From a virus, in IMG/VR virus record IMGVR_UViG_3300040815_001638, positions 1-31,741 of that record: a stretch of 31,741 bases of DNA. One strand, 5' to 3'. Of the stretch, positions 5,382-28,204 are shown one piece after another (position 1 is the first letter of the stretch; the number at the start of each line of letters is the position of its first letter). The translations under genes were made by a program, and so were the position numbers. The notes below the pieces were generated by a model. That model had not been told where the DNA came from and ran no database searches. It worked only from the letters and a program-made list of their open reading frames with translations.

Positions 5382-5657
5382 TTACTCGATGAGGTCTTGG
5401 CTCTTGTTCAGAGCCTTCATCCTGTCTGTGGTCTGCTTGTCGATGGTAATGGCTAGGAGGTCAGCTTTCAACACGTTGCTGTTGGCTGCGTTAATCTTTC
5501 CTAGTGCGTTTGAATACTCGGATGCTTCATTCAAGCTAAGCTCTCCAGCCTTCAGCGCATCAAGGACAGCAAATCCCTCTTGCGAAGCTCTGATGGAGTT
5601 CTGTTTCACGATCTCGATTGATTCGTAATCTTCATTAGTTCTCATGTCTTGTTTCAT
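5382..5657 (-). CDS. small helical phage protein, unknown function
   Basis: 91 aa, no family recognised. It is acidic and all-helical in appearance (SLNEASEYSNALGKINAANS), with no Cys and no membrane segment. There are two possible ATGs, 5657 and 5645. The first has the A-rich leader ACAAAAACAAAACCA and overlaps the preceding Zn-protein stop, so I prefer it. It is the last gene of the early block, directly before a strong terminator. Confidence 0.7.
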   Translation of the reverse strand: MKQDMRTNEDYESIEIVKQNSIRASQEGFAVLDALKAGELSLNEASEYSNALGKINAANSNVLKADLLAITIDKQTTDRMKALNKSQDLIE

Positions 5658-6109
5658 TGGTTTTGTTTTTGTTGTTTGATGAATCGTTTGATTTGTCGGT
5701 TGGTGTGGACTGCTTTGATGAGTTCTTCTGGTGGATCTGTCCCTAGTCGTTTCTTTAGGTATTCTTTTGTCCCAGATTCTGAGTTGTCGTATTCTCTCCT
5801 TTTGGCCTTGCCTCTCTCTGAGATTTTGTATTTCCTATGGATGGCCTTACCTCTCTCTGAGTTGTCGTATTCTCTCCTTTTGGCCTTGCCTCTCTCTGAG
5901 ATTTTGTATTTCCTCTGGGTGGCCTTACCTCTCTCTGAGTTATAGTATTCTCTCCCGCTGGCATAATTGCAAATTGAGCAATGGCGGGACACTGTATACC
6001 TTTCCGCCACATGCCCGTGCTTACACGGCTTCCCAGTGAAGTATCTCTTCAGGCCCTTTTCCATAGCCTTCTTCCTTGTGATTATCTTTGTCTCTTCTTG
6101 TTCGTTCAT
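5654..6109 (-). CDS. Zn-binding phage protein with basic tandem repeats; HNH/endonuclease VII-related N-terminus possible
   Basis: 151 aa. The N-terminal part LKRYFTGKPCKHGHVAERYT followed by RHCSICNYASGREYY gives four Cys/His ligands and resembles the Zn-binding start of many phage proteins annotated as HNH or recombination endonuclease VII-like. I see no full catalytic core. Residues about 56-107 are four 13-residue repeats of the form Y-x-x-S-E-R-G-K-A-x-x-R-x, strongly basic and probably nucleic-acid binding, encoded by a 78-bp tandem DNA repeat. ATG 6109 has leader CCAAAACG and starts just after a poly-U hairpin with a pseudoknot-capable loop. Confidence 0.75.
   Translation of the reverse strand: MNEQEETKIITRKKAMEKGLKRYFTGKPCKHGHVAERYTVSRHCSICNYASGREYYNSERGKATQRKYKISERGKAKRREYDNSERGKAIHRKYKISERGKAKRREYDNSESGTKEYLKKRLGTDPPEELIKAVHTNRQIKRFIKQQKQNQ
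5781..5963 (-). repeat. 78-bp tandem repeat inside the Zn-protein gene
   Basis: Copies 5781-5858 and 5859-5936 differ at two bases, and a partial third copy runs to about 5963. Each copy encodes two 13-residue units (Y-K-I-S-E-R-G-K-A and Y-D-N-S-E-R-G-K-A types). The length is a multiple of three, so copy-number change by slippage would keep the frame. Confidence 0.9.
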
Positions 6110-6119
6110 CGTTTTGGTA

Positions 6120-6212
6120 AAAAAAAGCCCCGTCCGGGACTAGACTACCGAACGAGGCTTTTTTTGAGGGTTTGATCCCAGTCTTTAAAGAGCTTTGTGA
6201 CAATGTCTAGTC
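6120..6212 (-). ncRNA. terminator-like hairpin with loop pseudoknot; possible third copy of the phage RNA element
   Basis: On the minus strand a long stem (6165-6152 with 6133-6120) continues through TTCGG/CCGGA to a 10-nt loop (6147-6138) and ends in eight U. Eight loop bases, GTCTAGTC (6145-6138), are complementary to GACTAGAC upstream (6212-6205). This repeats the architecture of the elements at 13813 and 15451 and again lies immediately before a start codon. Sequence similarity to those is weak (CTTGA...CCTGA...GGCA upstream), so homology is uncertain. The hairpin alone may serve as a terminator; its A-run/T-run flanks make it potentially bidirectional. Confidence 0.5.
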
Positions 6213-11444: not shown

Positions 11445-12743
11445 TCAGGACGGCTGGAAAACGGTCTCAAATCTCTGGAATTCCCCGACAAGCTCAAGTG
11501 GAAGGAGCTGGTCACGGGCTGCGCTTCTCCACTTGTCTACTCGGATGCCGTTATCGACAATCGTAAGGACTACATCGGCATCATGGCTAAGGCTTCGCGA
11601 CTCCCTGATCCGCCCCTCGTCGTTTAGCTGGACTGGGCTTATCACTGTGCATTTCAGCTTTTTTGCCAGTTGCTTGAGATTCTTGGAATATCGGGAAAGC
11701 TCCTGCTCCCTGTTTTCCCCTTGTAGTCGGTTTCCTTGGATTAGCTGAACATAATCAACCACGATGACAGACACAGCGCCAAGCTCGGCCTCTGCTTCTG
11801 ATTGCGCTATGATGTAATCAATCGACATCCCCGGTTCATCGGAAATCAAAAGGTTTTTCTCTGAAAGAAGGTTTGAATGCTTATGGATTGCGCGTTTTTG
11901 GCCAACCTCGATCTGCTGCCCGTTTGCACCTCCTGACCTTGGATTCGTAATTGCTCGCATGTTGATCCTGCCTCGGCAGCTAATCAGGCGAGAAGCCACC
12001 TCCGCAACTCCCATCTCCAAAGTGAAGATTAGCACCTTTTCTCCAGCATCGAGAGCGGGATTGATGACTTGGTAAGAAAGAGCACTCTTTCCACCGCTGG
12101 TTTTTCCTCCGATTACCCATAGTTCCCCAGGTCGCATTCCCCCTCCGATGTTGTCGAGTTGGTGAATTCCCGTCGAAAGTCCAGGAATATCCCCGTGCTT
12201 CATCCGTTCCTCCATTTCTTTTGCCGCTAGTCCGAGAGCGTGCTTAATCGTCGAAAACGCTTTTTTCTGCACAGTCGCCAATTTGATGTCTTCGATGGCG
12301 TTTTTCATCGAATCGAGGACATCTTGCGATGAATTGCCCGACAATGCCGCATTGCGGGCGCTGTAAGCATGCGTGAGGGCTTTCCGGCGTGCGTAGGTGT
12401 CTCTTACCTCCGAGAGATGCTCAGCGAACTGTGATGGCGTTACAGGCGCATCTGCGACAGCGACCAAGATTTCAAACCTGTCATCCCCTCCAGCACGTTC
12501 ATATTTGTCATTCTTCTCAAGGTGGTAAATCACGCTCCTGACATCGCAATCCGCGCCATCGTTATGCCTGTCGATGAGGGTTTTATAAATTATTTGGTTC
12601 TCTGGCCGGAAAAACATCGAGGGCTTGAGACCGTCTCCTTTGGCCTTCGATAGCCATTTGGCCGAGTCTATCAGCATCATGGAGAGGATCGAGTCCTCTG
12701 GGATTAGAGCCTTTGGTAGCTCGCTTTCTTCTAAGTTGTTCAT
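11445..12743 (-). CDS. dnaB: replicative DNA helicase, DnaB family
   Basis: 432 aa. Hexameric 5'-3' helicase that unwinds the phage replication fork. The N-terminal domain starts LPKALIPEDSILSMMLIDSA. The RecA-like domain has Walker A GGKTSGGKS (about 212-220), LIFTLEMGVAEVASRL, Walker B VIVVDYVQLI (about 327), and the C-terminal QLNDEGRIRESRSLSHDADV with arginine-finger region. The frame is open to 12854, but ATG 12743 overlaps the previous stop as ATGA and gives a normal DnaB start. Lies directly after an initiator gene and a DnaB-N-like gene, forming a replication operon. Confidence 0.95.
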   Translation of the reverse strand: MNNLEESELPKALIPEDSILSMMLIDSAKWLSKAKGDGLKPSMFFRPENQIIYKTLIDRHNDGADCDVRSVIYHLEKNDKYERAGGDDRFEILVAVADAPVTPSQFAEHLSEVRDTYARRKALTHAYSARNAALSGNSSQDVLDSMKNAIEDIKLATVQKKAFSTIKHALGLAAKEMEERMKHGDIPGLSTGIHQLDNIGGGMRPGELWVIGGKTSGGKSALSYQVINPALDAGEKVLIFTLEMGVAEVASRLISCRGRINMRAITNPRSGGANGQQIEVGQKRAIHKHSNLLSEKNLLISDEPGMSIDYIIAQSEAEAELGAVSVIVVDYVQLIQGNRLQGENREQELSRYSKNLKQLAKKLKCTVISPVQLNDEGRIRESRSLSHDADVVLTIVDNGIRVDKWRSAARDQLLPLELVGEFQRFETVFQPS

Positions 12744-13096
12744 TTTGAGATAATTCGTTTGAGTTTGCCTGTCTTGTTTCTGATTAATGATTGGTGTTTC
12801 ATTTCCCTGATAGCCTGCTCCAGCTTCCCGTCTACCTCCCTGTTGAGTCTCCACTGTATGAATAACGCCAGCCCTGAGATGTAGCCGTCGAACTCTTTGA
12901 GTAGATCTGGAGATTCGTAATAGATTTCCTCTGGCTCGATGCTCAATCCCTGTTCTGTCCTGTTGAGTAGAAACGCGAATGCTCGTTGAGTGATACCAGG
13001 CAGAAAGTGGGAAGGTGTAATTCCTGAGTCCTTAATCAGGGTCAGCGAGTTCTTGGTGTCGCGCATGAGACAGGAGATGACAATCTCTTCGTTCAT
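12740..13096 (-). CDS. stand-alone DnaB N-terminal-domain-like protein
   Basis: 118 aa. NEEIVISCLMRDTKNSLTLI, then SGITPSHFLPGITQRAFAFL aligns in pattern with the N-terminal domain of the DnaB next door (PEDSILSMMLIDS ... KPSMFFRPENQIIYKTL). There is no Walker motif; the rest is a basic helical tail. It may bind the helicase N-domain collar as a loader or regulator, or be a truncated paralogue; both are inference. The frame opens at 13183, but ATG 13096 overlaps the initiator stop (ATGA). Confidence 0.7.
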   Translation of the reverse strand: MNEEIVISCLMRDTKNSLTLIKDSGITPSHFLPGITQRAFAFLLNRTEQGLSIEPEEIYYESPDLLKEFDGYISGLALFIQWRLNREVDGKLEQAIREMKHQSLIRNKTGKLKRIISK

Positions 13097-13803
13097 AGGA
13101 TTCGCTGGGCTTGAGGTTTGCTGTGTTGAACTTTCGGAAGCTCTGGAGTCGGGTCGTCTTCCCATCGTTCCTGATTCATCCATGTTGAGCAGTGAGCGAT
13201 CAGAGAACCTGTTCGTTCCAAGTCTAGCTTGTAGTTCTCGATTCCAGTCTTGATCGTTTCAAAGTCTACCTTGGTGAGAGCTTTCTCGATTGCTTTCAAA
13301 GCGGACACTCTGGATTTCTTGAGAGGATAAATTTGGTAGAGTTCTTCGGCTTCTTTCTTATTATCCGTAGTTGAAGATGAAGATGAAGATGAAGGGGTTG
13401 GGTTTTGCTTAACCTGGGTGGTTTGCTTTTGCTTTGGGTTTTGCTTAACCAAATTGGGGTTTCCTCCCTTTTTTCCAGCTTTCCTCCTTATTTGGATCAA
13501 TCTTTCATCTCTAACCATTCGTCGATTATAGATCGCGCCATCCTCTTCCCTCTTGCTTGCTACCCCATAGGTTAAAAGTGTGCTTAAGATTTGGTTAACC
13601 TCTTGCTTATCCAAACGGAGAATATGCCCAAGAGCTTCAACTGGCATCGGCTTTCCCGCTAATAGCAAAACTCCTCTCTCCTCCGATTCGTGCATCAGGC
13701 AAAGAATATCAAACCAAACCGATTGGTCATGCCTCGACAACGCTTGGATTCCAGGATCTTTCCTCCAGTCGGCTGGGTAAAATTGGAATGCGGGTAATTT
13801 CAT
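13093..13803 (-). CDS. replication initiator-like protein (DUF1376-type N-terminus)
   Basis: 236 aa. The N-terminal winged-helix-like part, FQFYPADWRKDPGIQALSRH, with DILCLMHESEERGVLLLAGK and GAIYNRRMVRDERLIQIRRK, is typical of phage DUF1376/replication-protein starts. GKKGGNPNLVKQNP and a Ser-rich linker follow. The C-terminal YPLKKSRVSALKAIEKALTK and SLIAHCSTWMNQERWEDD is shared by lambda-O-like and other phage initiators. Upstream of DnaB, it probably binds the origin and recruits helicase. The linker DNA carries direct repeats that could be the origin. It starts six bases after the poly-U of the RNA element at 13813. Confidence 0.82.
   Translation of the reverse strand: MKLPAFQFYPADWRKDPGIQALSRHDQSVWFDILCLMHESEERGVLLLAGKPMPVEALGHILRLDKQEVNQILSTLLTYGVASKREEDGAIYNRRMVRDERLIQIRRKAGKKGGNPNLVKQNPKQKQTTQVKQNPTPSSSSSSSTTDNKKEAEELYQIYPLKKSRVSALKAIEKALTKVDFETIKTGIENYKLDLERTGSLIAHCSTWMNQERWEDDPTPELPKVQHSKPQAQRIL
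13374..13450. other. candidate replication origin repeats inside the initiator gene
   Basis: Two perfect 17-bp direct repeats, TTGGGTTTTGCTTAACC at 13398-13414 and 13434-13450, lie 36 bp apart with a partial copy between, next to a purine-rich trinucleotide tract (13374-13395). Lambda-type phages keep iterons within the initiator gene. The repeats also encode VKQNP twice, so protein-level repetition is an alternative. Confidence 0.4.
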
Positions 13804-13812
13804 AGGCTTAAA

Positions 13813-13960
13813 AAAAATCCTCGCCTCAAGCTCCTAAAATTGTCTTAGCGGGACGGCGGAGTTTAGAGGCGAGGAATTAAAATTCTTCTGTGTAAACCGT
13901 CCCGCTAAGTTTGGTCTGCCCAGATCCTACTCAGGACATAGATTCGTTCAAGGTTTATTT
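13813..13960 (-). ncRNA. structured RNA element, copy 1 (pseudoknot with terminator hairpin)
   Basis: On the minus strand: AAATAAACCTTGAAC (13960-13946), GTCCTGAGTAGGATC (13937-13923), then strand P1 (13909-13897). Next come P2 (13875-13866), P3 (13864-13858), the P1 partner (13856-13844, 13 of 13 bp), CAATTTTA, the P3 partner (13834-13828, 6 of 7) and the P2 partner (13827-13818, 10 of 10), then eight U. P1 and P2 interleave, so both can form only as a pseudoknot. The same order and conserved blocks occur at 15451-15591. It begins inside the end of the HNH gene and ends just before the initiator ATG. No known RNA class recognised. Confidence 0.75.
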
Positions 13961-14643
13961 ACAGCCAAGCGTCCCAATTCAAACAGTTCCAAAGTCTTCA
14001 CTGCAATAGGAGAAAAGTTTCCCTCGCGGATCATTCTCGCAACATCGGCCATCTTATGACATGGAGAATCACAAAGAGCCATGAGTTCCCGATCTGTCTC
14101 ATTCCCGATTGCGCTTGAACCATCGGCCAGCTTGTATGTTCGATGATGCGTGTGCAGAGTATGATGACTTGAGCTGTGGTCTTTCAAACAAAGCTCGCAG
14201 ATCCATCCTTTCCTCCTCCTGTAATCTAGGCTTCTTGCCTGCCACCCCATCGTTCGATAGTAGTCATCAAGCGGACTATTCGCTTTCCCAGACCATTCCG
14301 AAATATTCTCCAAAATCCCTTGAACTCCATCAGGATTTCCAAATTCCCTTTGATTTTCTCTTTTCAGCTGTAACAAACAGTCCCTTTCTTTAAAGGTTTG
14401 CCCATCACTCAAGCCTCCCAAATATCCTGACTTGTCCAAGCATCTCACAAGTCCTTTAACATCATCGTGTAAAAAGTTATTTGTTCCACCCTCATTCAAA
14501 AGCTTTTGAAGGTCGTCCCATTGCTGGCGATGAGACAAAAAGGCATCCTTAAAACCATCGATCAAAAGCCCTTGATCTTTCTTTTCTTTGAAATAGTTGT
14601 AGGCTACTTCTTTCTGTTCATAAGTGTAGTTTACGTTTTTCAT
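13948..14643 (-). CDS. HNH endonuclease
   Basis: 231 aa. The C-terminal nuclease has WICELCLKDHSSSHHTLHTH (Cys149, Cys152, His164-167), NETDRELMALCDSPCH (Cys191, Cys195, His196), the beta-beta-alpha-metal HNH layout with a structural zinc. The 140-residue N-terminal part is helical and unrecognised, and could be the DNA-recognition region. It follows the adenine methylase by 13 bases, with GAAAGAGA before ATG 14643. Both genes are visibly richer in A+T than neighbours. The pair may be a restriction-modification unit, or the HNH a homing-type nuclease; the sequence does not decide. Confidence 0.85.
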   Translation of the reverse strand: MKNVNYTYEQKEVAYNYFKEKKDQGLLIDGFKDAFLSHRQQWDDLQKLLNEGGTNNFLHDDVKGLVRCLDKSGYLGGLSDGQTFKERDCLLQLKRENQREFGNPDGVQGILENISEWSGKANSPLDDYYRTMGWQARSLDYRRRKGWICELCLKDHSSSHHTLHTHHRTYKLADGSSAIGNETDRELMALCDSPCHKMADVARMIREGNFSPIAVKTLELFELGRLAVNKP

Positions 14644-14656
14644 TGATTCTCTTTCT

Positions 14657-15421
14657 TTATTTGTTTTTCCAGATCACTAGTTCTTTTTGTTTTTTGTTTT
14701 TGCTGTTTACGCTATTGACTTCAATCTCCTCAATATCGAATCCTGAGTATAAATCTCTTATTAGCTCATTATCGTCGTAGCTAACAACGAAAGAATCGAA
14801 ATTGGCAACCCAGTTTCTCAACCTTAAATGATCAGATTCTTTGAATGAATTTTTGTATAGCCCTGATCCGGCCTTAACATAAGGTGGATCGGCATAGCAA
14901 AAACCGACAGTATCGAGTTCTTGGAAATCCTTGCTAGTTACATCCCAATTATGTGACTTATTAGCAAGTTCCCGAAGTGAATTTGACCACTTCCGAGGTT
15001 TCCACCGACAGTCTATTTTGTAAGACCCAGACTGGTCATATCCTCCTTGTGGTCCTGACATATAACCCATCCCTCCATGCGAACATGAATGTAGAATAAT
15101 TTTATTCAGTGCAGCTTCACGAATTTCACCAATTCCGTCTTTCTTCTTGCTTTCTTCCCATCGCTCCACAGAAGGAACAACTTTTAACAAATCTTGAATA
15201 AGAGTCTCAACATCTGATTTGATCATTTTATAAACTGCAATCACCCCAACGTCCAAGTCATTAATATTCAATTCCTTGAATCCATCAATAGCACTTAGTA
15301 ACCCACCGCCTCCAATAAAAGGTTCTGTGTAAATCATATCGCCACACCAAAGCGGATTGGGAAAATGACGAAGAATTTTGCCATGCAGGTTTTTTTTGCC
15401 GCCTGGGTATCTAGGAATCAT
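14657..15421 (-). CDS. DNA adenine methylase, D12/Dam class
   Basis: 254 aa, normal size for the family. Transfers methyl from SAM to N6 of adenine. RYPGGKKNLHGKI (about 4-16) and YTEPFIGGGGLLSA (about 31-44) form the SAM site, ELNINDLD the acidic loop, and ADPPYVKAGSGLYK (about 177-190) motif IV. The frame is open upstream into the RNA element, but ATG 15421 (MIPRYPGGK) is the conserved start. Paired with the HNH gene, it could protect against that nuclease or against host restriction. Regulation may come from the structured leader that ends 30 bases upstream. Confidence 0.93.
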   Translation of the reverse strand: MIPRYPGGKKNLHGKILRHFPNPLWCGDMIYTEPFIGGGGLLSAIDGFKELNINDLDVGVIAVYKMIKSDVETLIQDLLKVVPSVERWEESKKKDGIGEIREAALNKIILHSCSHGGMGYMSGPQGGYDQSGSYKIDCRWKPRKWSNSLRELANKSHNWDVTSKDFQELDTVGFCYADPPYVKAGSGLYKNSFKESDHLRLRNWVANFDSFVVSYDDNELIRDLYSGFDIEEIEVNSVNSKNKKQKELVIWKNK

Positions 15422-15450
15422 GACTTTAATAAGTTTAGTTTCATTACATA

Positions 15451-15591
15451 AAAAGCCCCTTTGGGGCGATCCGTTAAAATTGCTGGCGAGCGGTCGGATC
15501 GACACAAAGGGGCTGAAAGCCTTATTGTAACCGCTCGCCAAAGTGGTTGCCCTGATACTAATCAGGACCTGCGCTTGTTCAAGGTTTATTT
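15451..15591 (-). ncRNA. structured RNA element, copy 2 (pseudoknot with terminator hairpin)
   Basis: On the minus strand: AAATAAACCTTGAAC (15591-15577), GTCCTGATTAGTATC (15568-15554), P1 (15540-15530), P2 (15514-15505), P3 (15501-15495), P1 partner (15494-15484, 11 of 11), CAATTTTA, P3 partner (15473-15467, 7 of 7), P2 partner (15463-15454, 10 of 10), five U. Stem sequences differ from copy 1 yet all three stems pair, which is covariation. A local hairpin GCCCC-AAA-GGGGC just before the U-run competes with P2, giving a possible switch. Ends 30 bases before the methylase ATG. Confidence 0.78.
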
Positions 15592-15592
15592 C

Positions 15593-15769
15593 TCATCGTC
15601 GATCCTTTGTAAGTTCGCAGATTTGCTCAATCGCGATGGTCAGTTGCTTTTTCAGCTCGTCTCTCTGCTTGGTGATACCTGCTTTCTCAGCGATGAGTCG
15701 CTCGATGGTGTCACGGGCTTCCTCAAGCTCCTGCTCAAGCTCGGCTGCCAGTTCTAGGTATGGACTCAT
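15593..15769 (-). CDS. small coiled-coil protein
   Basis: 58 aa. Almost entirely heptad-like helix (LAAELEQELEEARDTIERLI, then KQRDELKKQLTIAIEQI). Strong Shine-Dalgarno GGGGAGGAG seven bases before ATG 15769, which overlaps the previous stop (ATGA). The stop lies two bases before RNA element copy 2. Function unknown. Confidence 0.75.
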   Translation of the reverse strand: MSPYLELAAELEQELEEARDTIERLIAEKAGITKQRDELKKQLTIAIEQICELTKDRR

Positions 15770-16608
15770 AGCAACTCCTCCCCTCCCTTGGCTGTAATCC
15801 CACCATCAAAACAACCGCATGGAATTGGGTTCTCATCATTCTCATCCAGCCATTCCCAAAGTTTCCCTTGGTCCTGATCAGCCTTCACAATGTCAGACCA
15901 CATAAATGATCTGCCCGTGAGACCCCTCGGTGTCCTGTTCTTTCCTCCTTCTCCGTTCGCGGCTTCCTCTATAGCGACCGCTCTATCAAACAATTCAGGG
16001 TGCTTGTTTTTTAATCGGAGGATCTCGCCACGCTTCATGGCAGGACAAAAGAAGCAGGCTGATTTACCTGGGACTGGTAGGTTATGGCGCTTGATAGCTT
16101 CGGCGCACTCCTCTCGGCCCCACTGCCACTCAATTAGCGGATAGGTGAAACGCTCAATGAATCCTCTAGCGTGGATCTCGTGAGTCTTATCAATCCTTCT
16201 ATGAGATTCCTTCGCATCATATCCGATAGCTTTTAAACACTCCTTGAATCCATTTTCCAAGCACCATTCAATCATCCTTTTTGATTGAGGTTGGATTTTA
16301 TGCTTCATCGAACATGCCTTTCTCCCGTAAGCAAGACTAGGAAGCATTTTTGCGTTTAGGCACAAATCCTCAAGTGTTGGCTGTCTTCCGTCTTTCATAG
16401 TATAGTTCACAACCTCGACTCCTATTCCCCACCATAGTTTGCAGATCCCGTCAATATGGCGAACGTGCTGGTAGGTTTCCGGCATCTCTCCTCCCGTGTC
16501 AGCAAACAGGATCAGGTCAGGCTTGATTCCTCTCTCTTTGAATCCGCAGAGCATGGCAGTTGAGTTCAGTCCTCCACCGTATGCAATTATCAATGGTAAT
16601 TTGCTCAT
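15766..16608 (-). CDS. PP-loop ATPase, PAPS reductase-like
   Basis: 280 aa. IIAYGGGLNSTAMLCG (about 7-22) is the PP-loop of adenine nucleotide alpha hydrolases. LILFADTGGEMPETYQHV and the Cys-rich SACFFCPAMKRGEIL fit the phosphoadenosine phosphosulfate reductase family found in many phages. Substrate in phages is not established; a role in DNA or RNA sulfur modification is a family-based possibility. The frame opens at 16698, but ATG 16608 has GAGGGGAGGAAC upstream and overlaps the previous stop (ATGA). It ends GGEELL, like the upstream protein GGEELI, because both overlap the same Shine-Dalgarno sequence. Confidence 0.85.
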   Translation of the reverse strand: MSKLPLIIAYGGGLNSTAMLCGFKERGIKPDLILFADTGGEMPETYQHVRHIDGICKLWWGIGVEVVNYTMKDGRQPTLEDLCLNAKMLPSLAYGRKACSMKHKIQPQSKRMIEWCLENGFKECLKAIGYDAKESHRRIDKTHEIHARGFIERFTYPLIEWQWGREECAEAIKRHNLPVPGKSACFFCPAMKRGEILRLKNKHPELFDRAVAIEEAANGEGGKNRTPRGLTGRSFMWSDIVKADQDQGKLWEWLDENDENPIPCGCFDGGITAKGGEELL

Positions 16609-17021
16609 ATCAGTTCCTCCCCTCCCTTGGCTGGTTTGAACGATTCCCCGCTCTGCTCGATGGTAACCTCGATGAACGGGCCTGATGATCGCCGGCACTC
16701 GTCCTGGTCAAAGGTGGTCATCGTGATGAATTTGGGAGAGTCATCGGAGAACCAACCGCAAGCGACAAGGGCATCTTCGATCTCCTTCCAGTTTCCCCTG
16801 CCAATAGATGACGTGTCCCATAGCCTTTGCCCTTTGCCCAGCACCCTCACAACGTGAACGGTGACAGGGAAAAGGAACGGGCTGCGGGTAAGCCTGAGTT
16901 GTCTCAGTTTGGCTTCAATCTGCTTGCGTATCTTGGCGGAAGAGAACCACTTGGAGCCCCTTCCATCGTTGCCATTGGTAAGCTCAAACGGAAGCTGGAA
17001 TGTTTCTTGGTAGTTGCTCAT
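16605..17021 (-). CDS. RusA-like Holliday junction resolvase (probable)
   Basis: 138 aa. The pattern VRVLGKGQRLWDTSSIGRGN, then WKEIEDALVACGWFSDDSPK and a final strand GPFIEVTIEQ, resembles RusA-type resolvases, in which paired acidic residues (D, D, DD) bind metal. The canonical DxDN core is not exact (WDTSSIGRGNWK), so the assignment is moderate. It sits in a recombination block with the RecE-like exonuclease. Coupled at both ends by ATGA overlaps. Confidence 0.6.
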   Translation of the reverse strand: MSNYQETFQLPFELTNGNDGRGSKWFSSAKIRKQIEAKLRQLRLTRSPFLFPVTVHVVRVLGKGQRLWDTSSIGRGNWKEIEDALVACGWFSDDSPKFITMTTFDQDECRRSSGPFIEVTIEQSGESFKPAKGGEELI

Positions 17022-27569: not shown

Positions 27570-27788
27570 TCAAAGTTTCTTATCTTCCTCGATGATCCGC
27601 TCTAGTTCTCGGTCTAGTTCTCTATCTAAATATCCCCCGTTTGTTGGTTCCATTCCCGCAGCCCATCCAGCACAGGCAGAGAACGCGAACGACTGAGAAA
27701 TCGGAAGCTCGTGAATTACATAGTCCGGAGTCCAATGATATTCACGGCACGCTGAAGCAATCCCCGAAAGAAGCCATCCGAACGGGTT
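27570..27788 (-). CDS. tail assembly chaperone, -1 frameshift extension (gpGT-like)
   Basis: 72 codons read only after a -1 slip at the A9 tract. Sequence NPFGWLLSGIASACREYHWT then PDYVIHELPISQSFAFSACA is typical of the T-part of phage tail assembly chaperones (W-x-P-D-Y-V/I, then LPxSQ). There is no good start codon of its own in the first 45 codons. Fused to codons 28204-27788 it makes a 211-aa protein that would recruit tape measure and tube subunits. It ends 16 bases before the tape measure ATG. Confidence 0.82.
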   Translation of the reverse strand, partial: NPFGWLLSGIASACREYHWTPDYVIHELPISQSFAFSACAGWAAGMEPTNGGYLDRELDRELERIIEEDKKL

Positions 27789-28204
27789 TTTTTTTGAGCC
27801 TTTGCCCCCTTTGACTCCATCGCCACAATCGTATTCATTGAGCTGTAATAATGGAAGATGACTTCTTTGGCATATTCCCTGTGTTTGCTCGCAGGGATGG
27901 AATCAAGAAAACTGTAAAGATTCTCTTCAGTAGTGCCGTCCTTGACCATCTTAAAAAGGTCTTGAGACGATCTCGTGAAGGTGAAGAGAGCCACTCCTAA
28001 GTCCTGCGCCGACCAGTCAGAACTATCACCTTTCAACAAGGGATGGTCGAAGCTTTCGAGGAATAGGCAGTGTCCGTATTTGACCTCAAAAAGAGGAAAC
28101 TCTCCTATGCTTTTGCCTTTGGGCAAGAACGCTTCGATAACCTCCTTGGGAGTTCTATTTTCAGTGTTCTCGACCGCTTTTGCAAGCTGGTCTAGATTAG
28201 GCAT
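27716..28204 (-). CDS. tail assembly chaperone, frame-0 product (gpG-like)
   Basis: 162 aa. NLDQLAKAVENTENRTPKEV and FTRSSQDLFKMVKDGTTEEN, then a helical end; acidic and helical as in G-like chaperones. The frame-0 protein ends shortly after the slippery tract with QKKTRSDGFFRGLLQRAV. ATG 28204 overlaps the upstream stop by 8 bases; the frame opens at 28288 but within another gene. Position between tube candidate and tape measure is diagnostic. Confidence 0.82.
   Translation of the reverse strand: MPNLDQLAKAVENTENRTPKEVIEAFLPKGKSIGEFPLFEVKYGHCLFLESFDHPLLKGDSSDWSAQDLGVALFTFTRSSQDLFKMVKDGTTEENLYSFLDSIPASKHREYAKEVIFHYYSSMNTIVAMESKGAKAQKKTRSDGFFRGLLQRAVNIIGLRTM
27787..27795 (-). promoter_or_regulatory. 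-1 ribosomal frameshift site, A9 tract
   Basis: Minus-strand CAA AAA AAA ACC reads Q-K-K-T in frame 0. Slipping back one base gives AAC CCG TTC GGA TGG (N-P-F-G-W), the start of a conserved chaperone extension. A AAA AAA is a classic slippery heptamer. Confidence 0.8.

Follow-up and report, generated by a model that had tools for sequence, protein, structure and literature searches.

The window, by which we mean the whole 31,741-nt stretch of viral DNA analysed here (IMG/VR virus record IMGVR_UViG_3300040815_001638), carries two copies of a structured RNA element. Both copies and all of the surrounding genes lie on the minus strand, the RNA reading from 13960 to 13810 in copy 1 and from 15591 to 15450 in copy 2, and along that strand the order is copy 2, Dam methylase, HNH endonuclease, copy 1, replication initiator and DnaB, as follows.

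15450..15548, minus strand: predicted copy 2 RNA, with a U tract at 15454-15450 and CAAUUUUA at 15482-15475
about 15540-15530 with 15494-15484, minus strand: P1 of copy 2
15514-15495 with 15473-15454, minus strand: P2 of copy 2
14657..15421, minus strand: Dam-type (D12) DNA methylase, after copy 2 (PF02086, E 1.9e-25)
13948..14643, minus strand: HNH endonuclease between the methylase and copy 1 (PHROG 144, E 1.9e-5; no Pfam match)
13810..13917, minus strand: predicted copy 1 RNA, with a U8 tract at 13817-13810 and CAAUUUUA at 13842-13835
13909-13897 with 13856-13844, minus strand: P1 of copy 1
13874-13866 with 13827-13819, minus strand: P2a of copy 1
13861-13858 with 13834-13831, minus strand: P2b of copy 1
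13093..13803, minus strand: replication initiator/organiser, directly after copy 1 (PHROG 270, E 8.7e-21)
11445..12854, minus strand: DnaB-like helicase, two genes beyond the initiator (PF03796, E 4e-39)

An earlier note on this DNA had described two copies bracketing an HNH-methylase cassette, and taken literally this is so; the better reading, though, makes each copy the leader of whatever gene follows it, copy 2 heading the Dam-type methylase and copy 1 the replication initiator. An 8-codon mini-ORF, MKLNLLKS (about 15446-15420, minus strand), has a stop that overlaps the methylase start (ATGA). It begins with ATGAAA, as does the initiator gene behind copy 1, and this shared start suggests that copy 2 may have arisen by a duplication that took in the initiator start.

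Each copy folds into an H-type pseudoknot in which a poly-U terminator hairpin, ending 15–33 nt upstream of the next start codon, serves as the second stem. The analysis bears out the earlier proposal of a pseudoknotted RNA in which the apical loop of the poly-U hairpin pairs upstream. The blocks said to be common to both copies are present (AAATAAACCTTGAAC, 15 of 15; GTCCTGAnTAGnATC, 13 of 15; CAATTTTA, 8 of 8), P1 forms 13 bp in copy 1 (CUUAGCGGGACGG/CCGUCCCGCUAAG) and 11 bp in copy 2 (UGGCGAGCGGU/ACCGCUCGCCA), and P2 pairs in both as P2a (9 and 10 bp) and P2b (4 and 7 bp), followed by poly-U. The order of P1 and P2 is interleaved in both copies, which is what makes the pseudoknot, and the stem sequences differ while the pairing is kept.

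Single-structure folding cannot represent a pseudoknot, and unconstrained duplex scans were set aside, as they yield mostly long chance duplexes. When both strands of the window were scanned for the pseudoknot-terminator layout, the top two scores were those of copies 1 and 2 (-54.9 and -50.0, the next being -39.0); the two copies also rank first and second among the 53 gene starts of the window, with none of 300 shuffles as good in either case. Shuffling the upstream stretch 2000 times while keeping P2 and its loop constant never matched the P1 of either copy. Copy 2 contains a second short hairpin, GCCCCAAAGGGGC. The 3' strand of its P2 can fold on itself as GCCCC-AAA-GGGGC followed by U5 (15455-15467, minus strand), an alternative short terminator that is absent from copy 1 and lost in the related locus L001; it could be a switch or a chance feature.

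The third helix of the earlier note, P3, fared differently. Because its sequence is almost the same in both window copies, with a single one-sided change, it shows no covariation, and only about 4 of its 7 positions pair in a related copy (L001, 7855-7990). P3 was therefore dropped as an RNA helix in favour of a promoter of sigma70 layout, and together with the conserved 5' block it is better read as a predicted promoter, TTGAAC, 16 nt, TAGNAT.

15555..15582, minus strand: predicted promoter of copy 2, -35 TTGAAC at 15582-15577, 16-nt spacer, -10 TAGTAT at 15560-15555
13924..13951, minus strand: predicted promoter of copy 1, -35 TTGAAC at 13951-13946, 16-nt spacer, -10 TAGGAT at 13929-13924

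The columns invariant over four related copies (two in the window, two in L001) include TTGA.C, TA..AT and GGCA, and the counterpart hexamers in L001 are TTGATC and TAATAT, 16 nt apart. Each window hexamer matches the consensus at 4 of 6 positions, 8 of 12 in total, and so the window-copy promoters are missed by a promoter scan with a cut-off of 9 of 12. Start sites would fall near 13917 for copy 1 and near 15548 for copy 2, with P1 beginning about 9 nt further on. Each copy is thus better read as a putative unit running from a promoter through an RNA of ~110 nt to a terminator.

A weaker candidate lies elsewhere in the window.

6119..6212, minus strand: third pseudoknot-terminator, P1 6212-6205 with 6145-6138, P2 6161-6149 with 6136-6124, then poly-U
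5654..6109, minus strand: 151-aa ORF after the third element, ATG at 6109

It ranks third among the 53 gene starts (score -38.7), and since 1 of 300 shuffles was as good and its P1 was equalled in 21 of 2000 shuffles with P2 and the loop fixed, 6212-6119 is likely but not certain to be a further element. The 151-aa ORF has no Pfam match at E<=0.05, and its Cys/His-rich N-terminus presumably resembles that of phage homing-endonuclease-type proteins. Tandem 39-bp repeats within this ORF (5778-5972) encode 13-aa repeats of the SERGKAKRREYDN kind. A lead from a repeat family at 27778-27809 was rejected, as it lies inside an ORF and is without the pseudoknot-terminator layout.

The only known carriers of the window subtype are this phage, L005 and L001. 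The contig L005 matches the window at 100% identity and so adds no evidence; L001 matches at 97.8% over the 5.3 kb upstream and diverges afterwards. The first copy in L001 keeps the window sequence through P1, its changed P2 3' strand still pairs with the unchanged P2 5' strand, and it precedes a different methylase (P0006, PF01555). A divergent element stands before the initiator gene of L001, syntenic with copy 1, and comprises P1 GGGAGUAGUUG/CAACUACCCUC (10 of 11), P2a CCACCGGAA/UUCCGGUGG, P2b CCUGA/UCAGG and poly-U. Its P1 alone is not significant (239 of 2000 shuffles); position, the predicted promoter and a perfect P2 argue for counting it as an element. When viral contigs were scanned for exact motifs of the window subtype, L005 and L001 were the only true relatives, the other matches being chance, and no convincing match to a cultured phage came from BLAST of the elements. 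Sequence searches miss the class because only its topology is conserved.

Homologues of the initiator carry the same topology just upstream in five loci (L025, L023, L027, L090 and L050), and in L025 and L050 a small HNH gene (MTYAEKLKDPRWQ) sits between the RNA and the initiator. An alignment of this small HNH (A2) led to 27 genomic and 80 viral loci. Among 96 non-redundant HNH starts, 27 have a score S<=-32 upstream; of the 456 other genes at these loci, 5 do (Fisher p 1e-17), and the shuffle expectation is 0.5 of 96. Because S mixes P1 and P2, P1 was tested alone with P2 fixed, giving a combined p of 1.1e-7 in the 33 loci with a terminator-like P2 and of 0.56 in the other 63 HNH loci. The excess was weaker at initiator loci, taken as a control (5 of 103 at <=-32 versus 0.5 in shuffles), and the element is therefore far from universal; many MTY-HNH loci are without it, and there is no such leader before the HNH gene of the cultured phages Abp95 and Pan5. 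The gene after MTY-HNH is usually initiator-like and is followed by DnaB, as judged by sequence resemblance and partly by Pfam. At a Verrucomicrobia locus (L165) a second strong pseudoknot-terminator with different stems (S -38.9) precedes the ORF start at 2162. The HNH leaders of L212, L228, L166 and L175 share another conserved block, TCGGGcaaAACTACGGgAGG-like and without the pseudoknot-terminator layout, which is possibly a different structured leader.

The earlier note had looked to relatives with covarying stems before phage genes for support, and such relatives exist; Bacteroidota-type phages have a kissing subtype in which P1 is a loop-loop helix between the 7-nt loop of a 5' hairpin, P0, and the 7-nt apical loop of the terminator hairpin, stem P4. 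In an alignment of eight sequences (A9), 94% of cells are paired, against 35-46% in slid controls, and 17 pairs are changed on both sides; pairing of the 7-bp kissing helix is complete (100%), and both partners have changed in 5 of its 7 pairs, although few independent events lie behind this covariation because one loop is common to three of the sequences. Scanning for one fixed kissing sequence yielded 36 distinct elements, whose loops are constant through that selection. Their P0 is 100% paired in five positions with up to 4 pair types and their P4 92–100% paired in seven positions with up to 5 pair types, the slid controls being far lower for both stems. P4 contains U-G wobbles, 32 cells in three positions, that the opposite strand could form only as mismatches; this fits an RNA of the coding strand and not a DNA cruciform. 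A looser scan for kissing hairpins (633 matches versus 340 in shuffles) was dropped as evidence on its own.

Upstream of 30 of the 36 elements we found TAnnTTTG, a Bacteroidota promoter motif, at 9, 14 or 17 nt from loop 1 in 28 of the 36; the background for a 45-nt stretch is 2.9%. The motif points to probable Bacteroidota hosts for these phages. A search of 395 Bacteroidota genomes with model R1 returned nothing significant and was uninformative. Position and architecture, and these only, suggest that the H-type of the window and the kissing subtype are homologous.

Of the 36 kissing elements, 17 are followed first by a homing endonuclease gene and 14 by an initiator gene; DnaB is found within the ORFs beyond in 18, though many contigs end early. 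The usual order is RNA, optional homing endonuclease, replication initiator and DnaB. Downstream Pfam domains include GIY-YIG, NUMOD3, NUMOD4, HNH_3, T5orf172, HTH_36 and Lin1244_N, and the endonucleases are of differing families (GIY-YIG, GIY-YIG with NUMOD3, NUMOD4-HNH_3, HNH_3, T5orf172). At L315 13278 (minus strand) the kissing-loop RNA precedes a gene for a 420-aa TnpB (OrfB_IS605). The gene order of the class and of the window suggests that the RNA originally stood before the initiator, that endonucleases were inserted behind it, and that in the window phage duplicated copies came to head other cassettes. The computational results cover fold and topology, covariation within the kissing subtype, conservation of the promoter motifs, adjacency and gene order, and the structure and position of the class are well supported. 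A large, covariation-supported RNA class heads the replication modules of uncultivated tailed phages, with several diverged copies in one phage.

In keeping with the earlier note, which had recognised no known riboswitch, ribozyme or antitoxin RNA, the elements in the window, L001, L023, L025, L027, L090, L050 and ten further loci have no match in Rfam 15 at E<=1; the lone weak Rfam match elsewhere in the window is below its cut-off. No description of the element was found in the open-licence literature, and we take the class to be one of leader attenuators otherwise undescribed in Rfam or in the open-licence literature searched. Leader RNAs controlling replication initiators are well known in plasmids. 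The pT181-type attenuator (PMC4878617) shares with the phage element an initiator-gene leader, an intrinsic terminator and a kissing-hairpin interaction, and an initiator-gene leader with an intrinsic terminator is predicted from sequence at copy 1 and at the kissing-subtype loci. In pT181, however, the leader kisses an antisense RNA that is a molecule of its own, and there is an anti-terminator (PMC4878617), whereas the phage element carries both loops in the one RNA. Neither an antisense gene nor an anti-terminator was identified for it, and the promoter scan near copy 1 reported no consensus promoter facing the leader. A passage of PMC8383071 citing Asano and Mizobuchi 1998 describes the repZ leader of IncI-alpha ColIb-P9, which likewise has a long-range pseudoknot in an initiator leader; as described there, that pseudoknot is an activator of translation which antisense RNA blocks, whereas the phage pseudoknot is built into the terminator. 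The RBS hairpins of T4-family homing endonucleases (I-TevI, segB, Aeh1 mobE; PMC2988022) also place an RNA structure directly upstream of an endonuclease gene, but they are simple, come from upstream transcripts and are not shared with initiator genes, whereas the phage element is a promoter-pseudoknot-terminator unit. None of these three matches the phage element in all defining features. Type III toxin-antitoxin loci (ToxIN; PMC5086642) have in common the series of promoter, pseudoknotted RNA, terminator and gene; the phage element is a single unit with no tandem repeats and no ToxN-like toxin, and the genes downstream of it (methylase, initiators, homing endonucleases) are unrelated to one another. 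OMEGA (IscB/TnpB) guide RNAs do not fit, as the partner genes vary, with one TnpB among the distinct pattern matches, and nor does a metabolite riboswitch, as the stems vary freely with no shared unpaired core across subtypes. Conservation lies largely in the promoter in the window subtype and in the covarying stems in the kissing subtype.

The reading that we favour, with somewhat better than even confidence, is that each copy is a discrete transcription unit acting as a leader attenuator of the gene behind it, and that the class limits or times the replication initiator. A promoter would give rise to a ~110-nt pseudoknotted RNA ending at an intrinsic terminator that abuts the next start codon, the terminator hairpin being the second stem of the pseudoknot. 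Because the terminator lies 9–33 nt before the start codon, with no room for another promoter, the gene behind would need read-through, which is the anatomy of an attenuator; most transcripts would stop at the terminator, and the downstream gene would be expressed only by read-through. Translation may in addition be impeded by the knotted hairpin, which lies immediately before the start codon. Since replication modules canonically open with the RNA, followed by initiator/organiser and DnaB, it probably serves mainly to restrict the amount or set the timing of initiator production, and homing endonucleases repeatedly inserted between RNA and initiator would fall under the same leader. Transcription, termination and regulation by these RNAs are predictions from sequence, and a terminator before a gene could simply insulate that gene. 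The pseudoknot might strengthen termination, delay it, or let the free RNA compete in trans. The class would give a testable handle on replication timing and on homing endonucleases collecting at the RNA-initiator junction.

Taken further, this may be an undescribed and widespread class of phage replication-control RNA, a self-kissing or H-pseudoknotted leader whose terminated product could also use these same loops to bind nascent leaders in trans and so exert RNA feedback on initiator synthesis, with the diverged stems of copies in one genome preventing cross-reaction; we put this forward tentatively, as a rather doubtful extension. That the element is instead a stable stand-alone small RNA acting in trans, found before initiators and endonucleases only through genomic packing, we judge unlikely: a promoter and a terminator to itself are predicted for it, and hairpins or the pseudoknot seal it at either end, as one would expect if it were stable, but the elements examined share one orientation and a near-constant spacing to the start codon, and copies within one phage share almost no stem sequence, which would be odd for a trans-acting product.

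P2 with poly-U is by itself a terminator, and copy 2 has its second short hairpin, so the elements might be ordinary intrinsic terminators at gene junctions, with P1 incidental and endonucleases inserting because the site is neutral. This is improbable, as P1 exceeds chance with P2 fixed, the loop-loop helix covaries, and the predicted promoter lies upstream of P1 and not downstream of the terminator. Phage origins are often in or near initiator genes, and a transcript that primes or activates an origin beside the initiator gene would suit the canonical place directly upstream of initiator and DnaB; yet the copies before the methylase, the ORF at 6109 and the TnpB gene are not beside an initiator, and L001 and the window have two copies each in the replication region, making an origin-associated RNA quite improbable. 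It is hardly credible that the RNA is a guide or partner, OMEGA-like or antitoxin-like, of the protein encoded behind it, since the same RNA stands before genes for unrelated proteins, initiators and methylases among them, and no repeats or variable guide segment were seen, even though it often stands beside an HNH, a GIY-YIG or, once, a TnpB gene and its RNA-terminator-gene order resembles type III toxin-antitoxin loci (PMC5086642).

Further along the window, a 30-nt direct repeat (90% identical; 15765-15794 and 16604-16633) flanks a PAPS-reductase-like gene. L001 is without exactly this gene and retains one repeat, as if the gene had been recombined out or in.
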